A stretch of DNA of 27,768 bases from a virus, in the IMG/VR virus record IMGVR_UViG_3300030406_003024, positions 1 to 27,768 of that record. One strand, written 5' to 3'. This document shows positions 2,676-24,073 of the stretch, piece by piece. The notes beneath the pieces were generated by a model. The model worked only from the letters and a program-made list of their open reading frames with translations. It had not been told where the DNA came from and did not search any database. Position 1 is the first letter of the stretch; each line of letters begins with the position of its first letter. A program made the translations under genes and the position numbers.

Positions 2676-3469
2676 TGAAAATACAAAGAACTCACACTAG
2701 GACAGTGTTTATTTCTGATATACACATACCTTATGAGGATAAAAAAGCCTTGGCAATGGCTATGGAAATTATCAAGGACATGAAACTTACCGATAAAGAC
2801 AATATCATTATTGGTGGTGACTTGCTTGACTACTATCCTATAAGCTCTTTTTCCCCAGATATGACATCTTCAAACATAGAAATAGAAATATTCGAGGGAG
2901 TAGAATTTTTAAACGATTTAAGACATATAGCAAAAAAAGCAAATATATATTTCTTTGAAGGCAATCATGAGCAGCGTATGCAAAAAAAGATACTTTCTGC
3001 TTGTAACGCTTTAGCGCCTTTTCTAGCAAATAGATTGCACATACATCAAATTTTAGAATTTAAAAAATTTAAAGTAAAAAATGTATCAACACCTTTTACA
3101 TTAAATAAAAAACTTTTTTATATGCACGGACATGAAAAAAGAGGCTTTGCTACACCACAACACATAGCTAATGTAAATTTAAAATACTATAATCGAAGCA
3201 TTGTCTTTGGTCATCATCATAGATTTGATATGACAGTTGCAACACAACTTGACGGTTCTTTACTTGGTGGTTTTGCAAATGGTTGTCTTGCAGATTTATC
3301 TCGTATGCCTGGAGGTTTATATTCTCCCTTTGATAACACACAACGTGGCATAAGTGTAGTATATGAAAAATCAAATGGTTTCTTTAACGTGCAACAACAT
3401 ATGTTTATTCCAAATAAACAAAAAGGTTATGACTGTCTTATTGAAGGCAGAGGTTACACTTCTAAATAA
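2675..3469 (+). CDS. Calcineurin-like metallophosphoesterase
   Basis: A 264-residue protein with the full metallophosphoesterase signature: ISDIH (Asp15, His17), GGD (Asp49), GNHE (residues 96-99), HGH (151-153) and GHHH (179-182). These ligate a two-metal centre that hydrolyses phosphomonoesters or phosphodiesters. The substrate cannot be read from the sequence; phage relatives include nucleases and small phosphodiesterases. The ATG overlaps the stop of the nuclease gene, so the two are translationally coupled. Its 3' end overlaps the convergent repressor gene by 16 nt, which marks the end of this rightward operon. Confidence 0.9.
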   Translation: MKIQRTHTRTVFISDIHIPYEDKKALAMAMEIIKDMKLTDKDNIIIGGDLLDYYPISSFSPDMTSSNIEIEIFEGVEFLNDLRHIAKKANIYFFEGNHEQRMQKKILSACNALAPFLANRLHIHQILEFKKFKVKNVSTPFTLNKKLFYMHGHEKRGFATPQHIANVNLKYYNRSIVFGHHHRFDMTVATQLDGSLLGGFANGCLADLSRMPGGLYSPFDNTQRGISVVYEKSNGFFNVQQHMFIPNKQKGYDCLIEGRGYTSK

Positions 3470-3804
3470 TCTGCAATACGTTTGATAAAAACAGAATGTT
3501 TCAAATCACCATTTTCAATTCTTGTCACAACTGAAGCAAAAGTTCCTACTTGTTTCGCAATTTCAGCCTGAGTGATTTTTAACAATTTTCTTTTAATCCT
3601 AATTTGATTGTTAAGCTCATAACTATGTTTTACTTTATCAAATTCAATTAACAATTTACGTTGTACTATTTCTGGTGAGTTTTTCTTTTTGTTACAAATA
3701 AAAGATAAATATTGTTTTGTAACTCCAAGCTTCTCTCCTATTTCTCTGTATGACATATTGTCAAAAATCCTTTGCTTTTCTATTTCCAATATTGTTGTTT
3801 TCAT
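3454..3804 (-). CDS. Two-HTH transcriptional repressor (Cro/CI-type)
   Basis: A 116-residue leftward gene with two helix-turn-helix units. Residues 18-38 (SYREIGEKLGVTKQYLSFIC) form the first; residues 68-115 form an XRE-type domain (KITQAEIAKQVGTFASVVTR). There is no cleavable C-terminal peptidase domain, so it is a short repressor rather than a full CI. It is transcribed away from the early rightward operon, whose consensus promoter lies immediately upstream among inverted repeats. It has no Shine-Dalgarno sequence and a -10-like element 6 nt before the ATG, which suggests a leaderless mRNA, as for lambda cI from PRM. A lysogeny or early-gene switch is likely. Confidence 0.85.
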   Translation of the reverse strand: MKTTILEIEKQRIFDNMSYREIGEKLGVTKQYLSFICNKKKNSPEIVQRKLLIEFDKVKHSYELNNQIRIKRKLLKITQAEIAKQVGTFASVVTRIENGDLKHSVFIKRIADYLEV

Positions 3805-3805
3805 G

Positions 3806-3858
3806 TGTATACATTACAACATATATTATGTTTGACAAGTAGTTGACGAATGTATATA
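3806..3858. promoter_or_regulatory. Operator-like nested inverted repeats between repressor and early operon
   Basis: Two symmetric elements share a centre region. AACAT-ATATT-ATGTT (3818-3832) abuts the -35 of the rightward promoter. TATACATT (3808-3815) and AATGTATA (3849-3856) are exact inverted copies; the first lies in the palindrome TGTATACA (3806-3813) and the second covers the start of the rightward -10. Occupation of these sites would block the strong promoter and could act on the leftward one. They are the best candidates for the repressor's binding sites. Confidence 0.6.
3811..3838 (-). promoter_or_regulatory. Leftward promoter of the repressor gene (leaderless)
   Basis: Read on the minus strand, TTGTCA (3833-3838), a 16-nt spacer and TAATGT (3811-3816) are followed by 6 nt and then the repressor ATG at 3804. 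The predicted +1 falls on the A of the ATG. The -10 keeps the key TA...T positions but is weak, as expected for a regulated maintenance promoter. It overlaps the rightward promoter's -35, so the two promoters would compete. Confidence 0.45.
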
Positions 3859-3860
3859 AT
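3832..3860 (+). promoter_or_regulatory. Strong sigma70-type early promoter
   Basis: TTGACA (3832-3837), an exact 17-nt spacer and TATAAT (3855-3860) make a full-consensus promoter reading into the early genes. The first gene's GGAGG ribosome-binding site (3868-3872) and ATG (3881) follow at the right distance. The divergent repressor gene and overlapping inverted repeats suggest that it is repressor-controlled. Confidence 0.85.
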
Positions 3861-3880
3861 TAAGTATGGAGGTAAGAGGT

Positions 3881-4117
3881 ATGAGATATACATATGGTAT
3901 TCAAAGCCCAGTAGATGTCGAAGCAAGCTCTGTGACAGAGTTTTTTGATAAGCTTTCTAAAACTAAGTATTTTGGTTTTGTTGTTAATAATTCATATGAG
4001 TTAAGACAACGATTATGTAAATTTTATGTAGATACACTTGCAGGTGTAGAACCAGAAAACGAACAAGAGATATTCGATAAACTGCTAGACAAAGGCGTTA
4101 TATTAAGATGGCAGTAA
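3881..4117 (+). CDS. First early protein, unknown (78 aa)
   Basis: Start taken at 3881 rather than the upstream ATG at 3866, because GGAGG (3868-3872) sits 8 nt before it and the promoter's +1 would fall near 3867. The product (MRYTYGIQSPVDVEASSVTE at the N-terminus) is small and soluble with no motif I recognise. As the first gene behind the repressor-facing promoter it occupies the position of a Cro-like or anti-host protein, but it shows no HTH. Confidence 0.65.
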   Translation: MRYTYGIQSPVDVEASSVTEFFDKLSKTKYFGFVVNNSYELRQRLCKFYVDTLAGVEPENEQEIFDKLLDKGVILRWQ

Positions 4118-4269
4118 AAAAAGAAAATCTAAGAAAAGGGTCTGGTTTTTTTAGACAACAACATGACCAAAACGAAGACGGCATGAAAGTTAAAAGAAAG
4201 AAAGCAAACAAAGAAAGAAACAAAACATTAAGGAGGAAAAAAAATGTTTCACAACAATCTAAAGACTGA
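4108..4269 (+). CDS. Tiny Lys/Arg-rich protein, 53 aa
   Basis: ATG at 4108 overlaps the end of the preceding gene by 10 nt; the frame stays open for 53 codons to TGA at 4267-4269. The product begins MAVKKENLRKGSGFFRQQHD and is strongly basic, ending in a KTLRRKKN cluster. No clear ribosome-binding site, so translation probably depends on coupling to the gene upstream. Function unknown; nucleic-acid binding is possible from charge alone. Confidence 0.5.
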   Translation: MAVKKENLRKGSGFFRQQHDQNEDGMKVKRKKANKERNKTLRRKKNVSQQSKD

Positions 4270-4390
4270 CTCTGCTAAGAAGAAAAGAGAAAGAGTCGAA
4301 AGAGCAAGGGCTACCAGAAAAGCTTACTGGTATAAGAAAAAACATGGAGGCACACAACAATGGCAAGCTGGAACAAAGAAGAATGGTTAG
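4244..4390 (+). CDS. Tiny basic protein, 48 aa
   Basis: AAGGAGG (4230-4236) lies 7 nt before the ATG at 4244, a strong ribosome-binding site. The 48-residue product is helical and basic (KKKRERVERARATRKAYWYK in the middle) with a Trp/Tyr patch. It overlaps the preceding tiny ORF by 26 nt in another frame. I do not recognise it; small basic early proteins of this sort are often host-directed. Confidence 0.6.
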   Translation: MFHNNLKTDSAKKKRERVERARATRKAYWYKKKHGGTQQWQAGTKKNG

Positions 4391-4512
4391 AAAGACGTGC
4401 AGAAGAATTGCATGAAGATGGTCTTGATTGGAAGGACGCTTGTATTCAAGCACAAGAGGACCTTGACAATGGGGACATGGAAGAACCAATAAATTATGAG
4501 GAGGAAGTATAA
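4360..4512 (+). CDS. Tiny acidic protein, 50 aa
   Basis: GGAGG (4346-4350) precedes the ATG at 4360 by 9 nt, and the TAA overlaps the next ATG (TAATG at 4510-4514). The product (MASWNKEEWLERRAEELHED...) is acidic and helical, in contrast to its two basic neighbours. Function unknown. The chain of overlaps argues that it is translated. Confidence 0.6.
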   Translation: MASWNKEEWLERRAEELHEDGLDWKDACIQAQEDLDNGDMEEPINYEEEV

Positions 4513-4979
4513 TGGCTTTGAAAAAAGTAGATGAAGGCACAAAAACAGTATCAATTGATAAGGTTATTGGTAAGACTAAAAACGGTATTGAAGTTAATGG
4601 TCAAGCTTACTGGTATTCTAAAAAGTCTGGTCAGTCAGTAGTTTTTGACGCTGGTGATGTGGTTCAATTATCATACACACATCTTGTAGACAGCGAAACA
4701 AACGACAATGTATATATGATACAAGGATTAGACAACACGCCAGAAGACAAAGATAAAATGATTAGTAAATCAACAGGAGATTTTGTAGAACAATATGATG
4801 CAGGTCCCCAAAGCTTACCTAAATTTAACAGCACCGAAGAACTGTCTAAAGATGAACTCATAACTAACATGAACGTCTTAAATAGAGCAGTTGACTGGTG
4901 CATAGCTTTTGCCAGAGAAGATGATGATGCTGTGCTAGAAAGAGCTAAACGATTTAAAAAAATGCTTTATGAAATTTAA
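4512..4979 (+). CDS. Early protein of unknown function, 155 aa
   Basis: A strong GAGGAGG site (4499-4505) precedes the ATG. Residues 1-75 have alternating hydrophobics and glycines (DKVIGKTKNGIEVNGQAYWY) as in a small beta-barrel, so an OB-like single-strand DNA-binding fold is conceivable. The C-terminal 50 residues are helical (ELITNMNVLNRAVDWCIAFA). It lies between the tiny early genes and the replication protein. I cannot assign a family; the OB-fold idea is only a guess from pattern. Confidence 0.65.
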   Translation: MALKKVDEGTKTVSIDKVIGKTKNGIEVNGQAYWYSKKSGQSVVFDAGDVVQLSYTHLVDSETNDNVYMIQGLDNTPEDKDKMISKSTGDFVEQYDAGPQSLPKFNSTEELSKDELITNMNVLNRAVDWCIAFAREDDDAVLERAKRFKKMLYEI

Positions 4980-4999
4980 TGTGTTAAGTTATTAGTGAG

Positions 5000-5052
5000 G
5001 GGTAGTGCCAACATATATCTAACCTCTAAACACAATTGGACCACCACTACCC
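5000..5052. promoter_or_regulatory. Inverted repeat upstream of the replication gene
   Basis: GGGTAGTG (5000-5007) and CACTACCC (5045-5052) are exact inverted copies around a 37-nt loop, with CCAA (5008-5011) and TTGG (5036-5039) able to extend the stem. The element fills the gap before the replication protein gene. It could be an RNA hairpin in the leader or a protein-binding site; no T-run follows, so a simple terminator is unlikely. Confidence 0.4.
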
Positions 5053-5103
5053 TTCTCCTTGACACATAAAAATCAATATGCGATTATAGAGGTGGAGGTT
5101 GAT

Positions 5104-5790
5104 ATGGAAAAACCAAATTATTATGCAATAATTACAGCAGATGTAAGATACGACAAAAGACTAAGTCCTTTCTCTAAGCTGATTTATTGTGAAGTTACAG
5201 CGTTAGCAAACAAAGAGGGCTATTGCTGGGCAAACAATTTTTACTTTGCTAAGAACTTTGAAACTACAGAAAGAACTGTTCAAAGAGCTTTGGCACAGTT
5301 AGAAGAATATGGATATATAAGAAAAGAAATATTAGAGGATAGTAAAAGAAAGTTGTTTATAGTAACGACAAAAATGTCAGTAGGGCATGACGAAACTGTC
5401 ATAAGGGACCATGACAAAAATGTCATACATAATACTATAAAAAAGAATAATAAAAAAGAATATATATACCAAAGAGATTTATTAGATTTTGAAAAGTTTT
5501 GGTCAAAGTTAAGAGGTAGAAAAATACAAAAACCATCTGCGTTAAAAGCCTATACTAAAATAGATACCGAGTTGTCGGCAGAAGAACTGGCACAAAAGTT
5601 TAATAAATTGTTTGATAGTAGAGAAGAAAAGTATGTTCCCTATCCACAAAAATGGCTTAACAATGAAGGTTGGAATGATGAGATTAAAAACAATATATCT
5701 GGACATGTCTACATGTCTGATGATGAGGTGTATCGTGATAAAGATGGTTACATTATATCGAAAAAAGAATACGAAGAACTTTACAAGTAG
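5104..5790 (+). CDS. Replication initiator-like protein (lambda O-type, winged HTH)
   Basis: A 228-residue protein. Residues 18-80 form a winged-HTH domain of the HTH_36 kind (LSPFSKLIYCEVTALANKEG, then TTERTVQRALAQLEEYGYIR). Residues 90-125 are a polar linker, and residues 128-195 form a second domain (FEKFWSKLRGRK ... YPQKWLNNEGW) of the type found at the C-termini of phage replication proteins. Start chosen at 5104 because GGAGG (5094-5098) precedes it; the longer frame would need a TTG at 5059. Three inverted-repeat iterons lie inside the linker coding region, as in lambda O, so it probably binds its own gene as origin. Confidence 0.75.
   Translation: MEKPNYYAIITADVRYDKRLSPFSKLIYCEVTALANKEGYCWANNFYFAKNFETTERTVQRALAQLEEYGYIRKEILEDSKRKLFIVTTKMSVGHDETVIRDHDKNVIHNTIKKNNKKEYIYQRDLLDFEKFWSKLRGRKIQKPSALKAYTKIDTELSAEELAQKFNKLFDSREEKYVPYPQKWLNNEGWNDEIKNNISGHVYMSDDEVYRDKDGYIISKKEYEELYK
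5367..5470 (+). other. Candidate replication origin: three iterons plus AT-rich stretch
   Basis: Inside the replication gene's linker region, three 12-bp inverted repeats are spaced 22 and 24 bp apart: GACAAAAATGTC (5367-5378), GACGAAACTGTC (5389-5400) and GACAAAAATGTC (5413-5424). The last extends to a perfect 16-bp ATGACAAAAATGTCAT (5411-5426). About two helical turns separate the copies, placing them on one DNA face. An almost pure A/T stretch (5427-5467) follows. The arrangement matches the lambda ori inside gene O: iterons, then an unwinding region. Function is inferred from the layout. Confidence 0.6.
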
Positions 5791-5831
5791 GTTGAAAAGA
5801 TTTTTAAATAAATTTATAATTAGGAGGAGTC

Positions 5832-6062
5832 ATGACAACAAACGAAGTACAAGATACTCTACTTTCAGATAAAGAATTAGAGGTAAAAATTATTAGAGAT
5901 GCTTTGCACATGCACAAGCTGTGGTTTAAAGATGGCAACATAATGCCTCGATATCTGCAAAAATTACAGCAATTGCTAACTAAATATGATGAAAAAGAAA
6001 CAAAAATTCTAACAAAATATAATTTATCTGGGAGCGTTTATGACACAGATAACGACTACTGA
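5832..6062 (+). CDS. Early protein of unknown function, 76 aa
   Basis: AGGAGG (5823-5828) lies directly upstream of the ATG. The product is helical and charged (residues 10-56: LLSDKELEVKIIRDALHMHK and on), without membrane segments or motifs I know. Its 3' end overlaps the next gene by 23 nt. It sits between the replication protein and the next early gene, so a replication-accessory role is possible but unsupported. Confidence 0.6.
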   Translation: MTTNEVQDTLLSDKELEVKIIRDALHMHKLWFKDGNIMPRYLQKLQQLLTKYDEKETKILTKYNLSGSVYDTDNDY

Positions 6063-6579
6063 AGATAACGCAATTAGGAATTGGCAAAAACTAGAACCAA
6101 TACTAGAGCATTTAAAAGACGTTAATTTAGCAATACTTAAAGGCAGATTAGAAAGAGGTATGTGGCTTAAAAGAATCAAAACCGAAAAGCTTTATGTAGG
6201 TTATGATGGTTGGGTTTCTTCTTGGGCAGAATTTTTAGACAATGTTGCTATTGCTAGAGAAACTGCAAGACAAGATATGGAAATCTATGACCAGTTTGCT
6301 GCTTATCTGCAAAACACACCAAAACTGATGGACACACTTAGTTATGAGAGGTTGGTACGACTACTACCTGTTGTAAAAAAAGAGCCTGACTTAAAGCAGT
6401 CCCTCCTTGACATGGCTTCGACAGCTAGTCGTGCCGACTTCGACAACAATGTAAAAGAATTAAAAGGACAAGTTGCAGATGACAAATGTATAAATCCTAC
6501 AGACTGCACTTCACCAAAAATCATACTGGAAAAATGTCAGATATGTGGAGTTATTTATCGTAGGAAAGACTTGGAATAG
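6040..6579 (+). CDS. Unknown early protein with C-terminal CxxC motif, 179 aa
   Basis: GGGAG (6029-6033 region) precedes the ATG by 5-6 nt. The first 135 residues are helical (LEPILEHLKDVNLAILKGRL, RETARQDMEIYDQFAAYLQN), resembling phage proteins that pair a helical domain with a short HTH-like segment (WAEFLDNVAIARETARQDM). The end has CQIC (residues 168-171), half of a zinc ribbon, with one more Cys at 149 and 155. Function unknown; DNA binding is plausible. Confidence 0.6.
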   Translation: MTQITTTEDNAIRNWQKLEPILEHLKDVNLAILKGRLERGMWLKRIKTEKLYVGYDGWVSSWAEFLDNVAIARETARQDMEIYDQFAAYLQNTPKLMDTLSYERLVRLLPVVKKEPDLKQSLLDMASTASRADFDNNVKELKGQVADDKCINPTDCTSPKIILEKCQICGVIYRRKDLE

Positions 6580-6589
6580 AGGTTTTGAA

Positions 6590-6916
6590 ATGAACAATGA
6601 ATTTATAAAAAAATATTCTTTAGAATATGTAGATTTTATAAGAGGTAAAAAGTGTTGCGTATCTGGTAATCATGTATCAGACCCTCATCATTTACATGCT
6701 TTAGGAATGGGAGCAAACCGTAACAAACCTAATTCAAGACATTTTACATGTGTACCGTTGAGTAGAGAAATGCACACAGAATTACATCAAAGAGGAACAC
6801 AGCAATTTCAAGATAAATACAATATAGATTTATGGCAAGAGGCGTATTACTTATTTATAAGCTTTCTTGTTATACAAGGGGTTATAAGTGATGAAAGTTT
6901 TAACAAAACCGATTGA
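6590..6916 (+). CDS. HNH/DUF968-like nuclease or recombination protein
   Basis: A 108-residue protein with KKCCVSGN (Cys22, Cys23), DPHHLHALGMGANR (His33, His34), HFTCVPL (His51, Cys54) and HTELHQRGTQQF (His62, His66). This His/Cys pattern is characteristic of the phage DUF968/HNH-like nucleases often placed near replication and recombination genes. The start at 6590 has AGAGG (6578-6582) upstream; an upstream in-frame start inside the preceding gene lacks support. Probable role is DNA processing during replication or recombination; a Holliday-junction role is not demonstrable here. Confidence 0.75.
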   Translation: MNNEFIKKYSLEYVDFIRGKKCCVSGNHVSDPHHLHALGMGANRNKPNSRHFTCVPLSREMHTELHQRGTQQFQDKYNIDLWQEAYYLFISFLVIQGVISDESFNKTD

Positions 6917-7487
6917 TGAAATAAAACCATATGACAAAAATCCAAGAAAAAATCAACCTGTAAAAAAAGTTGCAAAAAGCATAAAAGAGTTTGGTTTCAA
7001 TCAACCTATTATAGTAGATAAAGACAATGTAATAATTGCAGGTCATACAAGATGGAAAGCAGCAAAAGAACTTGGATTAGAAAAAGTCCCAACAGTTACT
7101 GTAAAACTTTCAAAAGAAAAAGCAGCTATGTATAGAATTATTGATAACAAGCTTTCAGAGGAAGCAATATGGGATAAATTTTTACTTGAAATGGAAGTAA
7201 ACGACTTGCCCTTTGATGAATGGGACTTTGATTTTACAGATACTACTGAAGACATTATTGAAGAAATACAAAGTGTTAGAGAAACAACTGGCATAGAAGC
7301 AACAGACCAACAGAAAAAACTAATATTTTTATACACAAATCCAACAAAATATGCAAAACATTTTGACAAAATACAAGCAATAAAATACGAATTTGGATTT
7401 GATACAGACGACCAAATTGTCGATTACTTATTGGAGAAAGCGCTTGGTAATTCTAGTAAATCCAATGTGGTCAGTAGAAAATCTTAA
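6891..7487 (+). CDS. ParB/sulfiredoxin-like nuclease-domain protein
   Basis: A 198-residue protein with a ParB N-terminal-type fold: KPYDKNPRKN (NPR at 17-19), a helical segment VKKVAKSIKEFGFNQPIIVD and the signature GHTRWKAAKELG (residues 51-62). ATG at 6891 has AAGGGG upstream; a GTG at 6888 is possible. Phage ParB-like proteins bind NTP/DNA, can nick DNA, and often sit beside DNA methylases. Here the next gene is a glycosyltransferase. The C-terminal half (residues 95-198) is acidic and has no recognised domain. Its 3' end overlaps the glycosyltransferase by 44 nt. Confidence 0.85.
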   Translation: MKVLTKPIDEIKPYDKNPRKNQPVKKVAKSIKEFGFNQPIIVDKDNVIIAGHTRWKAAKELGLEKVPTVTVKLSKEKAAMYRIIDNKLSEEAIWDKFLLEMEVNDLPFDEWDFDFTDTTEDIIEEIQSVRETTGIEATDQQKKLIFLYTNPTKYAKHFDKIQAIKYEFGFDTDDQIVDYLLEKALGNSSKSNVVSRKS

Positions 7488-8802
7488 TAAAGATTCTAAC
7501 TACGTTCACATAAAAAAAATCTTAGAAGTATTCACACAAATGTTTCCTGAGTATTATTTTGTAATACCGTTTCCTGTAAAACATTTTAAATATTATGAAG
7601 ATGGATTGTTTGATAATCCAAACATAGAACGTATACCATATCAAATACCCTTAGCAAAAAAACTAAACAATATAACATTCAACGGTGAATGGTACAAAGA
7701 TGTTGTAGAAAAATACAGCATATCTACTATCTATAACCAAATTCCAGAAGTAACAGGTCAACTTAAATGTTTAGATACACACTTTGCAAGTAACATCAAC
7801 GTCATAAATCAACATCATTGGATTCATCATGAATCTTTACCTTATGCAATGCAAAATCAAATGCAATGGGTATATTGGCAAATAATAGGTGATGTCTTAG
7901 CAGACGTAAATATTTACAATTCAAATTATACAAAAGACATGGTGTACGACAACATAGCAAAATACATGCCAGAGTTTTCTGACAAGGTAAATGGTCAAGT
8001 TTTACATATGGGATTATGGAATGATGAACACATAGACAACAACAGTCAACGCAAAAGGTTTGATAAATTTACATTCTGTTACAATCATAGATTACAAGCA
8101 TATAAAAACTGGGAAACGACTTTTGAAATATTTGACGAACTGTATAAAAAACATGACTTTAATGTAGCTGTTTGTCCTGTTGGCACAAGCAATATCGAAA
8201 AAGTAAATAAACGACCTTATACAACAATTTACGACTGCAAAACAGAAAAAGAATATTATGACGTTTTAAAAAAATGTCATGCAAACACTTTTAATTCACA
8301 ATATGAAACATTTTGTATATCAATATTTGAAAGCATGATGTTGGGTCTTGCAACTATTGTGCCAAATACTACGACAATGCCAGAATTACTTGGTAAAGAA
8401 TCGTGGCAGTTGTTTAACAATACCGAAGAACAAAAACAAAAATTATCAGATTTGTTAACAACACCGAATATGGCATATGTATGTGGTAATAAAAATATAA
8501 ATACATCAAGAGCATATAACATAATTGATTATTGCACATCACTAGAAAACATATTTAAAGGGCAAATGACGAAAGTAAATTACTATGAAAGTTTGAAAGA
8601 TAAAAATAAAGATAAGCTAAACAATTATCTTAAAAAATTTAATTATATCAATGCCTCAGATTTAAAAAAAATCAGACGACATATCAATCTAAGTAATCAA
8701 TCCGTACCAAATCATAGGCTTGTAAACATTATGTATCATGCTGGATATAATCAAAAATTAGAAAAAGGCGAGCCAGTTTTCTGCAAAAAACTTGACAAAT
8801 AA
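7444..8802 (+). CDS. GT-B glycosyltransferase (GT4-like)
   Basis: About 452 residues. I start it at the TTG at 7444 because GGAG (7433-7436) lies 7 nt upstream and the protein then opens with the first Rossmann strand (VILVNPMWSVENLN). The C-terminal domain has the donor-binding E-x7-E motif ETFCISIFE (Glu288, Glu296 from this start) followed by SMMLGLATIVPNTTTMPELL, typical of retaining GT4-like enzymes. The acceptor is unknown; phage relatives can glycosylate virion proteins, DNA bases or host surface glycans. It sits between ParB and terminase genes and may pair with the large GT fusion at 16353. Confidence 0.8.
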   Translation: MVILVNPMWSVENLNKDSNYVHIKKILEVFTQMFPEYYFVIPFPVKHFKYYEDGLFDNPNIERIPYQIPLAKKLNNITFNGEWYKDVVEKYSISTIYNQIPEVTGQLKCLDTHFASNINVINQHHWIHHESLPYAMQNQMQWVYWQIIGDVLADVNIYNSNYTKDMVYDNIAKYMPEFSDKVNGQVLHMGLWNDEHIDNNSQRKRFDKFTFCYNHRLQAYKNWETTFEIFDELYKKHDFNVAVCPVGTSNIEKVNKRPYTTIYDCKTEKEYYDVLKKCHANTFNSQYETFCISIFESMMLGLATIVPNTTTMPELLGKESWQLFNNTEEQKQKLSDLLTTPNMAYVCGNKNINTSRAYNIIDYCTSLENIFKGQMTKVNYYESLKDKNKDKLNNYLKKFNYINASDLKKIRRHINLSNQSVPNHRLVNIMYHAGYNQKLEKGEPVFCKKLDK

Positions 8803-8819
8803 TTTTAAACAAACAAAAT
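8792..8819 (+). promoter_or_regulatory. Promoter for the packaging/head operon (leaderless)
   Basis: TTGACA (8792-8797), a 16-nt spacer and CAAAAT (8814-8819) end 6 nt before the terS ATG at 8826. No Shine-Dalgarno sequence precedes that ATG. The -35 is consensus; the -10 is imperfect. The geometry equals that seen at four other SD-less genes here. Confidence 0.45.
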
Positions 8820-8825
8820 ATTTGT

Positions 8826-9197
8826 ATGGCACATAGAATTTCTAACACAAAACTAGAAGAGCTGATAGTCCAACATAAAGGTTTTGTAACTAGAATCTGC
8901 AAATCAGCAGGTATTTCAAGAGCTGCTTTTTACAAAAGACTCAAAAGTTATCCAAAATTACAAACAAAATTAGACGAAAGTCGTGATGAAGTTGTAGACT
9001 TTGCTGAGTCTAAATTGCTAGAACTTATAAATGAAAAGCATTACCCAAGCATAAGGTTTTATTTAGAAACACAAGGTAAAGATAAAGGTTATACAATAAA
9101 AACAGAAGTAGAAAACAAACACACAATACAAAATATTATTGAAGTCCCAGAGATGAGTGCCTATGAGCCAGACATTGATGAAATCAGAGAACACTAA
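8826..9197 (+). CDS. terS: Terminase small subunit
   Basis: A 123-residue protein with an N-terminal HTH (FVTRICKSAGISRAAFYKRL, residues 20-39), then helical oligomerisation segments (DEVVDFAESKLLELINEKHY) and a short acidic tail. This is the usual TerS plan: recognise the packaging site and feed DNA to the motor. The gene directly overlaps the large subunit gene. No SD is visible, and a promoter lies 6 nt upstream, so the mRNA may be leaderless. Confidence 0.85.
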   Translation: MAHRISNTKLEELIVQHKGFVTRICKSAGISRAAFYKRLKSYPKLQTKLDESRDEVVDFAESKLLELINEKHYPSIRFYLETQGKDKGYTIKTEVENKHTIQNIIEVPEMSAYEPDIDEIREH

Positions 9198-19271: not shown

Positions 19272-19296
19272 TGTACTAGCTAATTAATATTTCTAG

Positions 19297-19325
19297 TTGA
19301 CAATTGTAATATAATATTATATCTT
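19297..19325 (+). promoter_or_regulatory. Promoter for the endonuclease VII operon
   Basis: TTGACA (19297-19302), a 17-nt spacer and TATCTT (19320-19325). The expected +1 (about 19332) coincides with the first bases of the structured leader stem at 19331, which supports both calls. Several other TATAAT-like strings in this AT-rich patch lie at the wrong distance from a -35. Confidence 0.6.
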
Positions 19326-20049: not shown

Positions 20050-20231
20050 TGATTAAAATGCACCTTAAAGTAAACTTTCAAGAAGCGTCTATGATTGAAA
20101 CGGCTTTGATGGAACTTATAAAAGTTGTGAAAACACGCCCTAGCCCAGAACACATAGCTAAATTAGAACAGCTTTTACTTGAAGTATCCAGTACAAAAAC
20201 AAAATTATATGAATTAAGGGAGGAAGAATGA
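20049..20231 (+). CDS. Small helical protein, 60 aa
   Basis: Start and stop overlap both neighbours (TAATG at 20047; ATGA at 20228). The product is a helical hairpin (EASMIETALMELIKVVKTRP, EHIAKLEQLLLEVSSTKTKL). AAGGAGAGAAAG precedes the ATG. No known family; coupling to the endonuclease VII gene suggests a shared operon only. Confidence 0.6.
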   Translation: MIKMHLKVNFQEASMIETALMELIKVVKTRPSPEHIAKLEQLLLEVSSTKTKLYELREEE

Positions 20232-20500
20232 CAAAAAAAGAACAAAAATATATGAAACACCTCATGGATAACAAAGACTCATATCAACTAGAGATATATG
20301 GCAAACTTGAAAAGATGGCAGAAACTATTGAAGACTTGCCATTGCCAATGTTTTATTTGTTTGCCTTGGAGGTAATCATGACAAAAATGCACGGCAATTT
20401 AAGTAGAGATTTATTCTTCGATACAATAGAGCAAACAGCAGATGAAATAGATTCACTCGGCAATAGTGTTAACAATAATAACAATATCAGTTTAAACTAG
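20228..20500 (+). CDS. Unknown protein, 90 aa
   Basis: ATGA overlap with the preceding gene and GGGAGGAAG upstream support translation. The product is helical and acidic, with a hydrophobic stretch (LPMFYLFALEVIMTK, residues 39-53) too short and polar-flanked for a sure membrane anchor, and an Asn-rich end (NNNNNISLN). It is the last gene of this operon; hairpins follow directly. Function unknown. Confidence 0.6.
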   Translation: MTKKEQKYMKHLMDNKDSYQLEIYGKLEKMAETIEDLPLPMFYLFALEVIMTKMHGNLSRDLFFDTIEQTADEIDSLGNSVNNNNNISLN

Positions 20501-20573: not shown

Positions 20574-20605
20574 CATAAGATACAGTACGCATAAGATACA
20601 GTACG
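20574..20605 (+). repeat. Perfect tandem 16-bp repeat, two copies
   Basis: CATAAGATACAGTACG occurs at 20574-20589 and again at 20590-20605 with no spacer. Each contains ACAGTAC, the same core as the motif cluster at 21369-21877. A third GTAC follows at 20628. It lies about 50 bp upstream of the cyclotransferase promoter and could bind a regulator. Confidence 0.75.
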
Positions 20606-20651
20606 CCTCACTTTTTTTATATTTTCTGTACTAACTTTCTGAAATTATTAG

Positions 20652-20680
20652 TTGACTTTATTAACTATATGATATATCAT
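20652..20680 (+). promoter_or_regulatory. Leaderless promoter with palindromic operator for the cyclotransferase gene
   Basis: TTGACT (20652-20657), a 17-nt spacer and TATCAT (20675-20680) end 6 nt before ATG 20687, so +1 should be the A of the start codon. No SD is present. The -10 is the right half of a perfect 12-bp palindrome ATGATATATCAT (20669-20680), flanked by AACTA (20663-20667) and TAGTT (20681-20685). A bound dimer would block the polymerase. ATGATATATC recurs at 23483-23492. Confidence 0.65.
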
Positions 20681-20686
20681 TAGTTT

Positions 20687-21184
20687 ATGGTTAGATATTA
20701 TTTCGCATATGGTATGAACACAAACGCTGAGCAGATGGCGCTGAGGTGTCCAAACGCTAAGTTTTTGGGTACGGCTAAGCTTTCAAATGCTAGGCTTGTG
20801 TTTCGCCATGTGGCAGATTATGAAATTAAACAAGGCTACACATTACACGGTGCTTTGTGGTTGATAACACCAGAATGTGAGGAGGCGCTTGATTCGCTTG
20901 AGGGCTTTCCCACGTTCTACACTAAGCACATTGTATATCCTGATATCAAGGTAAGACATGGTATCAGACAGTACAAGTCACTAATCGAAGGCAGTCCTGT
21001 CATGATTTATCAAATGGTGAACGGGTACGACAACAGCAGACCATCAAAGAGTTATTTTGATTGTTTACTTTCTGGGTATAAAAGGCATGGACTACCCCTT
21101 GCGCAACTTTTCGCTAGTAAAAAGCAGGCGAGGAAGCTTCAACAGTTGAGTTTTGCCGACATATCGGGAGGCAATCGTGCTTAA
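20687..21184 (+). CDS. Gamma-glutamylcyclotransferase-like (GGCT/AIG2) protein
   Basis: A 165-residue protein. YFAYGMNTN (residues 5-13) is the substrate-binding YGSN-type loop, GALWLITPECEEALDSLEGFP (55-75) carries the catalytic-type Glu72, and VMIYQM (105-110) is a core strand. The family cleaves gamma-glutamyl amides with formation of 5-oxoproline or related lactams; some members act on gamma-glutamyl amines. It is the first gene of an accessory cassette that also has an amidoligase on the opposite strand. The C-terminal helix region (LLSGYKRHGLPLAQLFASKK) is basic. No SD, probable leaderless mRNA. Confidence 0.8.
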   Translation: MVRYYFAYGMNTNAEQMALRCPNAKFLGTAKLSNARLVFRHVADYEIKQGYTLHGALWLITPECEEALDSLEGFPTFYTKHIVYPDIKVRHGIRQYKSLIEGSPVMIYQMVNGYDNSRPSKSYFDCLLSGYKRHGLPLAQLFASKKQARKLQQLSFADISGGNRA

Positions 21185-21308: not shown

Positions 21309-21966
21309 ACAACAACGAACTAAATTTTTTGAACCGACTCAGTTTTGGGTAACCAACCACCTATACCAGTACACTTTTTAAACACACCTGAGCTCCTTTG
21401 TTTACCTAGACGGGCCCCGTTTATCTGTAAGTAAGCATAAGTATAGTACCAGTAGACAGTATATTACGTTTATGTTCAGTATAGTTCAGACTCTAATTTG
21501 GGTTGATATTGTAAAACACTTGATTTTATTGACTAATATTAAGAATACATAGTACAAAGTATACAATCCCGACATCTAAAACGCTGGTTTAAATTGTAAA
21601 AGTCAACCAATATAGTACACCAAGCTACCTAGTACGCTTCTTTTTTGTCATACAGTACACTACCTCTAGCAGTCTTCTGCCTGTTATAGTACAGTTTTGC
21701 TGCGCTTCTACCCCATGTACTACTTCTACAGTACACCACCTACCCCAGAGCCTGCCTCCGTACATGCCGTGTACTATATCCTTACAGTACATCTTTGGTT
21801 TCGCAGCACGGTCAGGGCAATTGGGTACTGCAATTAAAGTACATAACAATAAAAACAAAAATAAAAAAAGTTCGTACTAGCTGCCACAGCGAGGCAATAA
21901 TAATAATAATATTTTCTATATATAAATATGTATCTGGATAGATACGGAAAGATGCCCATATAAGGC
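21309..21966. other. Gene-free convergent intergenic region, 658 bp
   Basis: No convincing gene on either strand. It lies between the ends of two convergent operons (cyclotransferase rightward, amidoligase leftward), so it is not a promoter region. It holds the AGTAC motif cluster (21369-21877), a short GC island with the inverted repeat ACGGG-C-CCCGT (21410-21420), and an A/T-only patch around 21896-21930. G+C is visibly higher in 21640-21830 than in flanking phage genes. Confidence 0.7.
21369..21877. repeat. Cluster of 15 GTAC palindromes, 14 as AGTAC/GTACT
   Basis: GTAC starts at 21369, 21446, 21552, 21615, 21632, 21655, 21689, 21717, 21731, 21760, 21771, 21787, 21825, 21839 and 21874. 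About two would be expected by chance in this length. Fourteen carry the pentamer AGTAC in one orientation or the other, often as TAYAGTACAY. Spacing is irregular (11-106 bp), densest at 21615-21877 (12 sites in 263 bp). Irregular spacing and mixed orientation argue against coding repeats and for a DNA-binding or modification-site array. Confidence 0.8.
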
Positions 21967-21989
21967 AAAAAAAGACGCCATATAGGCGT
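21967..21989 (-). terminator. Leftward rho-independent terminator of the amidoligase operon
   Basis: On the minus strand ACGCC-TATAT-GGCGT is a 5-bp stem with 5-nt loop followed by C and seven Ts (21967-21973 on the plus strand are As). It is 66 bp beyond the stop of the last leftward gene. Confidence 0.7.
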
Positions 21990-22054: not shown

Positions 22055-22285
22055 TTACCAAGTTTTTCTTGGTTCTAGTTTGTCTTCACTTGGGTATCTC
22101 TTGCTCAATACAAGAATAAAATCCCTCATGTTCTGCGTGTTAACAAAGCCTGTATCGTATGCGACATTGATATAGTTCTTGAATATCCCCATATCATGTG
22201 CTGTCATTGCATCACAGTCGATATTGTGATACATGCACAACTGTTGCAAATACTCTAGCTTTCTTGCTGCTGTTACAGTTTCCAT
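22055..22285 (-). CDS. Unknown protein downstream of the amidoligase, 76 aa
   Basis: Leftward. Start taken at 22285 because GAGGAGG lies 5 nt upstream; a GTG at 22303 would add six residues. The product is helical (ETVTAARKLEYLQQLCMYHN, FKNYINVAYDTGFVNTQNMR) with two Cys in the first third. It follows the amidoligase by 47 nt in the same operon, and a terminator lies beyond it. No family recognised; a partner or regulator of the amidoligase is possible. Confidence 0.65.
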   Translation of the reverse strand: METVTAARKLEYLQQLCMYHNIDCDAMTAHDMGIFKNYINVAYDTGFVNTQNMRDFILVLSKRYPSEDKLEPRKTW

Positions 22286-22332
22286 CTTAACCTCCTCGCC
22301 CACCTCGTACCCCTTGGGCTATATTGATATTG

Positions 22333-23310
22333 TTACTTTGCATACCTTGTGCGTATCTCTCTAGTGATACCATTGATAAGGCATGATTCACCTCTACCAA
22401 TGCCATGATTACCGAGTCGCTTAGTACGCGATTCCCAGTATCGACATTGGTCTAGATTCTCTGCAGCATACTCATAGATTTGTCGCCATGAATGCCATAG
22501 ATTCTTTGATAGTCTTGGTCCCTTCGTATGTCGATTACGCTTAGCATAATCTGTTCGGTGACCATCTGTAAAGTGTTCAGCTGTTGATAATCTGAACATT
22601 GGATTTTGTGCTACTGGTTGCAATCCCTTGTATCGATTACCGAAGTAATCAACTAGGTTGCGATACAGCAACAACGTATAGGACAGCTTGTCAGTATCAA
22701 CTGTGAACGAGGGCCATCTAAATTCTAAGGTTCGATAATCTCTGATATGATTGGTAGAGATACCATAGAACTTCCAACCCTCGACATTGTCGAAAAATTC
22801 TTCTGTCGACAATCGTCCTTGTTTCCATCTCAGCGCTGACTCGTACATATTATCTGCCATATTAGCAGTAACAGGTTTACAATTCACATTGTTGTCCCAT
22901 CTGCTCTTTGGAATAGTCAATTGCATAATGTATTGATATTCGTAGAACTTTGTATATACATTGCTGATTTGGATTGGATTTAGGTCTGCAACATCTACAT
23001 GGATATGATATCCAGTGATAGCAGACTCCCTGCATTCCACTTGTCGTAATGCTGATATTACCTTTTCCCAGTATTCGATAAGTGTGTCGCTTGTATAGAT
23101 ATCAGTATCGATATTGTTACTAGCAACCTTCTCAGGGTCGAGATTTACTTCCCAATGATTTGTTCCATGTTCCCTCTGCAATCTTACTTCGGGATATGGA
23201 TACAATGCCCTTAGGATATCATCTCTTGAATATTCTGATATGAACTCTAGCTCAATGTAGCACCTACGCATAGCATTGATATTACTAGAGCGTTCTCTTG
23301 GTCTACTCAT
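22333..23310 (-). CDS. Amidoligase-like enzyme (glutamine-synthetase fold, COOH-NH2 ligase)
   Basis: A 325-residue leftward gene with a perfect AAAGGAGG 6 nt before ATG. Motifs in order fit the Amidoligase_2 family: CYIELEF (Glu20, Glu22; metal/ATP site), WEVNLDP (53-59, in place of the usual strand with an acidic residue), GYHIHVDV (100-107, HxH) and YRTLEFRWP (192-200, catalytic Arg/Glu region). The family shares the glutamine synthetase fold and joins carboxyl to amino groups using ATP. Phage members are thought to modify peptides or cell-wall precursors. G+C and codon use look higher than in the structural genes, suggesting acquisition. The C-terminal 100 residues are Arg-rich and unassigned. 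Confidence 0.75.
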   Translation of the reverse strand: MSRPRERSSNINAMRRCYIELEFISEYSRDDILRALYPYPEVRLQREHGTNHWEVNLDPEKVASNNIDTDIYTSDTLIEYWEKVISALRQVECRESAITGYHIHVDVADLNPIQISNVYTKFYEYQYIMQLTIPKSRWDNNVNCKPVTANMADNMYESALRWKQGRLSTEEFFDNVEGWKFYGISTNHIRDYRTLEFRWPSFTVDTDKLSYTLLLYRNLVDYFGNRYKGLQPVAQNPMFRLSTAEHFTDGHRTDYAKRNRHTKGPRLSKNLWHSWRQIYEYAAENLDQCRYWESRTKRLGNHGIGRGESCLINGITREIRTRYAK

Positions 23311-23754: not shown

Positions 23755-24039
23755 CTAATTATTTTCGTCCGAATTGTCCCTGGCAAGGGTATGGTCAATC
23801 TGCTTAACAATACAAGATTTAGGTATGACTATAGTGTTTCCTATACTGTCTATATCGATACGATTAGATGAGGCGAAATCTGTAACAAGTGTTATGGCTT
23901 CTTTATTATCATTAACAATAAAACCAGTAGAGATACATAAGGCGAGTTTCTGGTCTTCTACTTCTGACATGTCTTTCCATTCACAAGATGACTGAGCATC
24001 AAACCAATGTATGCTGACATGTCGGTAGGGTATCTTCAT
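23755..24039 (-). CDS. Unknown leftward protein, 94 aa
   Basis: Start taken at 24039 (MKIPYRHVSIHWFDAQSSCE), because a promoter ends 6 nt upstream and no SD exists; a longer frame to 24060 would overlap the -10. The product has beta-rich alternation (KLALCISTGFIVNDNKEAIT, NTIVIPKSCIVKQI) and no membrane segment. The mid-part (TGFIVNDNKEAITLVTDF) resembles the small phage proteins that fold as beta-barrels, but I cannot name a family. It is divergent to the connector operon, a position where regulators or morons are common. Confidence 0.65.
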   Translation of the reverse strand: MKIPYRHVSIHWFDAQSSCEWKDMSEVEDQKLALCISTGFIVNDNKEAITLVTDFASSNRIDIDSIGNTIVIPKSCIVKQIDHTLARDNSDENN

Positions 24040-24045
24040 AGTAAA

Positions 24046-24073
24046 AATATAAAAGCACAATTAAATTAGTCAA
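24046..24073 (-). promoter_or_regulatory. Leftward leaderless promoter
   Basis: On the minus strand TTGACT (24068-24073), 16-nt spacer and TATATT (24046-24051), then 6 nt to the ATG at 24039. No SD. It is back to back with the rightward promoter at 24093-24120. Confidence 0.6.

Follow-up and report, generated by a model that had tools for sequence, protein, structure and literature searches.

The window, by which we mean the entire 27.8-kb stretch of DNA analysed here, is a virus fragment of a tailed phage encoding terminase, portal, major capsid protein (MCP) and a Mu gp36-like protein. The MCP shares about 30-33% identity with those of cultured phages, and blastn and tblastn searches against cultured phages yielded no close relatives and no cultured phage that is close at the region described below. 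MCP matches in bacterial genomes, obtained in a prophage search, were at most 37% identical, and no host was therefore assigned. The amidoligase as sole query did not retrieve viral relatives. Planctomycete phage ZRK32, which carries genes with the same names as window genes (PMC10945688), was discarded as a relative, as its record gave no match to the amidoligase profile and contains nothing matching the array.

The region of interest (array B) is a non-coding block flanked on the plus strand by a gamma-glutamylcyclotransferase (GGACT) gene and a small ORF, and on the minus strand by the ORF at 22055 and an amidoligase gene (Table 1). The gene orientations, and a hairpin at which the minus-strand operon ends, agree with the placement between converging operons given in a preliminary description of the sequence. 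A minus-strand ORF within the array (21625-21858) was taken as spurious; a homologue was absent among the relatives compared. The GGACT and amidoligase genes belong to one phage cassette. Small proteins of 65-80 aa, the 'LSVNDMGMIQYYYNYF' family, are encoded beside arrays in the window (22055-22303), L049 (6385-6618), L031 (11661-11861), L035 (14500-14694) and L025 (9136-9336); a Pfam match above cut-off was absent for this family.

Table 1 Features of the window discussed in the text.
Feature	Position	Strand	Remarks
Dual-HTH protein	3454-3804	-	C-terminal domain 434/P22 c2/HipB-like; candidate binder
Promoter half-site GTACT	19273-19277	+	begins 24 bp ahead of the -35 box (promoter at 19297)
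Predicted sigma-70 promoter TTGACA-N17-TATCTT	19297-19325	+	operon with Endonuclease VII-like gene
90-aa all-helical protein	20228-20500	+	in the sets compared, confined to array-bearing members
Cluster A, tandem repeat (CATAAGATACAGTACG)x2	20574-20605	+	two half-sites upstream of the GGACT promoter
Promoter half-site GTACT	20628-20632	+	begins 24 bp ahead of the -35 box (GGACT promoter)
Predicted sigma-70 promoter TTGACT-N17-TATCAT	20652-20680	+	GGACT gene
Gamma-glutamylcyclotransferase (GGACT/AIG2-like; phrog_2520)	20687-21184	+	accessory gene
Array B, 15 GTAC / 14 AGTAC/GTACT half-sites	21369-21877		non-coding; between converging genes; same slot in relatives
Dyad TACTACT-TC-TACAGTA	21718-21733	+	2-bp spacer
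Dyad TACTATA-TCCT-TACAGTA	21772-21789	+	4-bp spacer
Dyad TACTGCA-AT-TAAAGTA	21826-21841	+	2-bp spacer
Terminator-like hairpin	21975-21989	-	end of amidoligase operon; bounds the array
Small ORF, 82 aa	22055-22303	-	weak alignment to small array-side proteins of relatives ('SVNDMGMIQYYYNYF' type)
Amidoligase_2 (PF12224)	22333-23310	-	accompanies the array in relatives
phrog_25889 protein	23755-24060	-	part of the array-associated cassette

GTAC occurs 58 times in the window, 15 times at 21369-21874 and 43 times elsewhere. Twelve of the 15 lie within 263 bp starting at 21614, and 14 have the form AGTAC/GTACT; these exact counts agree with the 15 sites in about 510 bp reported in the preliminary description. 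From base composition, 86.5 GTAC would be expected per window and about 1.6 per 510 bp; the rest of the window predicts 0.85 per 510 bp. First- to third-order Markov shuffles (150 each) reached at most 8 GTAC and 9 AGTAC/GTACT per 510 bp, compared to the 15 and 14 observed, so that the clustering, for which a shuffling test had been proposed, goes far beyond shuffled sequence. AGTAC is also the most enriched 5-mer of the array, with 14 occurrences in the block and 14 in the remaining window (nominal P 2e-19). As a separate feature of the window, GATC and CCGG are completely missing (86 and 25 expected by composition), which suggests restriction avoidance; GATC is likewise missing from most relatives and retained in a few (L010/L025, L034).

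About 50 related contigs were collected by scanning for matches to the capsid protein, the glycosyltransferase and gp36, and the array phages among them are uncultured, largely marine tailed phages. An array occupies the same slot, after the GGACT gene and before the amidoligase gene, in L009, L011, L029, L031, L032/L049, L034 (contig G001), L035, L050, L054 and L055. About ten relatives have 5-24 AGTAC sites per array, with up to 24 in 585 bp in L029. The contigs of L031 and L035 stop before the amidoligase gene and that of L006 stops within the array; L009 retains an array even though its amidoligase gene is inverted. No array was seen in relatives in which the glycosyltransferase gene is closely followed by gp36 without the amidoligase cassette, nor in L057 and contig G003, which have only a weak amidoligase-like gene. 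As the array is present with the amidoligase cassette and absent from relatives lacking it, it travels, judging from gene content, with the accessory cassette, where absence refers to the fragment seen, most contigs being fragmentary. The non-coding DNA of array relatives is otherwise mostly dissimilar. In L032/L035, the sole informative pair, sites are 86% identical compared to 62% outside, while the close pairs L054/L055 (94 versus 91%) and L029/L006 (86 versus 84%) are too similar to discriminate. Both the conservation of the array in relatives and that of its sites relative to the flanks, which had been named as checks, were observed, the latter in L032/L035. A single-orientation RCAATA repeat lies beside or interleaved with the dyad array in L049 (7500-7650), L035 (at the end), L034 (16996-17120) and L009 (8580-8840), and occurs without an AGTAC array in L025 (8280-8610) and L026 (5640-5980); at the repeat in L025, there is a GP88-family gene (PF17338), and an amidoligase was not detected.

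Across the arrays, the half-site reads TAAAGTA(C/T)A, and TAYAGTACA in the window lineage, the AGTA core being fixed by construction of the half-site set. The form TAYAGTACAY, previously ascribed to many sites, fits exactly in 5 sites only. Two half-sites can be paired as a dyad, TACTTTA-n2/n4-TAAAGTA. The L054/L055 arrays consist mainly of AAAGTA/ACTTTA dyads, with 16 AAAGTA in the gap and 2 in the remaining contig, and contain only 6 AGTAC. Because these arrays persist as AAAGTA dyads with few GTAC, the conserved unit is, at the sequence level, the half-site and not the GTAC palindrome. In non-redundant dyads, TACT and AGTA are separated by N8 in 24, by N10 in 25 and by N9 in 2 cases, which in the notation TACTTTA-n-TAAAGTA corresponds to a 2- or 4-bp centre, 3 bp being nearly absent. 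The two forms alternate in most arrays and, overall, in 19 of 23 neighbouring dyad pairs (P 0.0013), with nine consecutive alternating dyads in L029, five in L035 and three in the window; L011 and L054 show no alternation, and their well-matched dyads are all of the 2-bp form. Many window sites are unpaired, and the spacing is not as irregular throughout as noted earlier: three inverted pairs at 21718, 21772 and 21826 follow a 2/4/2-bp pattern as in relatives. The distances from one dyad centre to the next tend to be close to whole numbers of helical turns (R 0.555 at 10.5 bp, P ~0.0015; 23 partly non-independent distances with a broad peak, in which periods of 9.3-10.0 score above 10.5). This phasing would fit DNA-bound proteins and is suggestive only. 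How one protein reads both the 2- and the 4-bp form is a puzzle. Among 2.9 million viral contigs, multi-dyad arrays were confined to this phage family, and matches to the dyad pattern outside it (L087, L108, L137) were isolated dyads without an array. The IMG/VR contig L108 contains a 6-kb stretch (3000-9000) without an 80-aa ORF under code 11, for which code 15 was no help; it is possibly non-phage.

In array phages, the half-site is also found at accessory-gene promoters, 22-24 bp ahead of their -35 box. The window has two promoters with this element, and L030, L031, L032 and L035 have two or three each, with unrelated genes downstream. Among 73 non-redundant promoter-like sequences from array-bearing or closely related phages, 8 of the 24 upstream [AG]TACT have their start 23 or 24 bp ahead of TTGAC (corrected P ~2e-7), compared to 1 of 13 in 52 promoter-like sequences from array-negative phages. 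Sites upstream of a comparable promoter, at other distances, were found in L029, L006, L009, L011, L054 and G001. The tandem repeat pointed out in the preliminary description is real and adds two half-sites upstream of the GGACT promoter. The same motif is thus found at several promoters and at a fixed position relative to them, and because of this fixed distance upstream of the -35 box the promoters at 19297 and 20652, which serve accessory genes directly preceding the array, would form one regulon. We consider it fairly probable that the half-site is a promoter element of an accessory-gene regulon under one transcription regulator. The predicted promoters with a half-site look strong on their own. 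The arrangement resembles class I activator promoters, which have a site near -61, in having a single upstream site whose distance to the -35 box is fixed; it differs in that this site is a half-site rather than a dyad and appears coupled to a remote array. Another palindrome, CCGACATATCGG / CAGAGATGTCTG (CNGANATNTCNG), is located at 21156-21167 of the window and near the operon promoter in L011, L054, L055, L009, L049, L035, L031 and G001, recurring near the same promoters; it is possibly the site of a second regulator.

Taken as a whole, the array looks like a docking platform for a gene regulator and not like a chance pattern. As the half-site recurs at a fixed promoter distance in array phages, we assign the sites to a regulator of accessory genes, and array B is fairly probably a dense, promoter-less cluster of predicted binding sites for such a sequence-specific transcription regulator. 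A protein-binding array or regulator sink had been among the earlier suggestions and is strengthened, as relatives keep both the location and the motif of the sites and the sites return as a promoter element at a fixed distance; the dyad, the 2/4-bp alternation and the promoter element are added here. The regulator is probably dimeric, and we rather favour dyads with 2- or 4-bp centres as its strong sites, with single half-sites also occurring. The array probably serves as a titrating or looping platform. The regulator would bind promoters weakly via single half-sites and the array strongly via dyads, and the array would either set the level of free regulator or hold a looped complex with the promoters. 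The regulator could thus be titrated as phage genome copies rise, or be delivered or held by looping. In a more specific version, which we regard as rather doubtful, the array would act as a genome-copy timer, in which the alternating strong dyads soak up a phage repressor during replication and the weak promoter half-sites are vacated past a copy threshold. A toy titration model yields such a copy-number switch only with freely chosen affinities and numbers.

With less certainty, the binder may be the phage's own dual-HTH protein, the best candidate because its conservation tracks the array; that this protein is the binder is a tentative assignment, which draws on comparison and a structure model. 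Identity to the window copy is 57-72% in array phages and 27-35% in array-negative phages, while initiator, phosphoesterase and MCP show little drop between the two groups, a comparison of few genomes (4 versus 3) in which conservation follows phylogeny. The slow change of the protein fits a regulator tied to many sites. Of five structure-model runs, one was confident (pLDDT 92), and the C-terminal half resembles the 434 and P22 c2 repressors, HipB and SinR, none of the matches having an E-value below 0.04. Operators of the XRE repressors 434, P22 c2 and HipB are short inverted half-sites 6-8 bp apart that occur in small sets. The array shares the short inverted half-sites, and the modelled C-terminal domain of the candidate has the XRE repressor fold; to our knowledge, 5-24 copies with alternating N8/N10 centres have not been described for XRE operators. 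The divergent promoter region of the dual-HTH gene itself lacks a site in all but one lineage seen, which is odd for an autoregulated repressor. In this region (window 3804-3866, L167-L182), the -35 boxes are arranged back to back and conserved (TTTGACAAGTnnTTGACA), as would fit mutual exclusion of the two divergent promoters. The 90-aa helical protein was also considered as site binder and rejected, its helical model being without an obvious HTH.

The sites might instead bind a host regulator, the array being a sponge or placing cargo genes under host control. No phage gene has proven binding, and the site-flanked accessory operons have no single DNA-binding gene in common, which would agree with a regulator from the host; however, the restriction of multi-dyad arrays to this one family among the viral contigs scanned and the co-variation of the dual-HTH protein favour a phage protein, so that a host regulator is unlikely. 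In lambda ori and the iterons of P1 and F, initiator sites form phased arrays close to A+T-rich DNA, and extra copies (incA, incC) titrate the initiator. Array B could likewise be a replication origin, with the dyads as iterons for the HTH_36 replication initiator (5059-5790) followed by A+T-rich opening DNA. Large non-coding gaps, the phased dyads, the initiator gene and A+T-rich or RCAATA-repeat DNA beside the arrays of L009, L034, L035, L049 and L054 are all compatible with this. Such A+T-rich stretches are not outstanding in the window, however, where the array lies outside the eight stretches of lowest duplex stability. There is also no strand-skew switch at the array, and fourfold-site skew shows no consistent change. 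Relatives without the array have the same initiator (identity 0.46-0.51, compared to 0.49-0.50 in more distant array phages), and G003, G004 and G006 have an HTH_36 initiator and no array in the contig. Unlike the sites of lambda ori and iterons, the array is thus missing from relatives whose initiator is of the same family, and its sites mark accessory promoters, an element that an origin leaves unexplained; we regard an origin as quite improbable.

If the region were transcribed, the inverted pairs could form small hairpins for an RNA-binding protein. The L029 array does fold better than shuffles (z -4.7), and half-sites show a strand bias in the window, L009, G001, L011 and L055. The window array, however, folds weakly (z -1.7), many half-sites have no partner, an Rfam match is absent, and the same half-site lies upstream of promoters, outside that transcript, which makes an RNA element very unlikely. 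A partition role, raised earlier, would make the sites a centromere of an extrachromosomal prophage, as in mycobacteriophage RedRock, where parS-L and parS-R, each with eight direct 8-bp repeats, flank parA/parB (PMC7157519). The window resembles RedRock in that a small operon lies between two clusters of sites and an integrase was not found. Yet the array phages have inverted pairs and a promoter element and lack ParA: the ParA ATPase (PF13614) was absent from 8 records with positive controls. The ParB_N protein (6888-7487) matches nothing beyond that domain and is also present in array-negative phages, and operon content differs between phages, so that a centromere is highly improbable. A packaging role, also proposed before, is weakened by the terminase genes lying 12 kb away. 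GTAC as a DNA modification or restriction target, suggested earlier for the palindrome and compatible with the avoidance of GATC and CCGG as a sign of restriction pressure, can practically be dismissed, given the L054/L055 arrays that remain as AAAGTA dyads with few GTAC and the 43 further GTAC in the window.

Arrays of regulator sites are already known in phages, namely stoperators and parS arrays. The stoperators of cluster A mycobacteriophages are spread over the genome, stop elongation and are bound by the immunity repressor (PMC9283540, PMC6550527). They have in common with the sites described here that a short sequence, recognised by a two-domain phage regulator (here the candidate dual-HTH protein), is repeated many times outside ordinary operators. 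The array sites, in contrast, are packed in one non-coding block, are often dyads and also lie 22-24 bp upstream of -35 boxes; a stoperator-like dispersal across short intergenic gaps was not seen in the window, where 14 of 28 AGTAC/GTACT fall in one block. A limited literature search did not turn up any account of a dense array in non-coding DNA whose 2- and 4-bp dyads alternate and which is tied to a fixed promoter half-site. With the predicted accessory-gene regulator and its sites, the accessory (moron) genes of an uncultured phage family would have a cis-regulatory code that can be tested, consisting of a half-site at one distance from the -35 box and a dense array in which the two dyad forms alternate. 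Should the array titrate the regulator or form loops with the promoters, the phage would possess a device coupling the expression of cargo genes to the dose of the regulator or to genome copy number; the genome-copy timer, if true, would free the accessory promoters above a threshold copy number.
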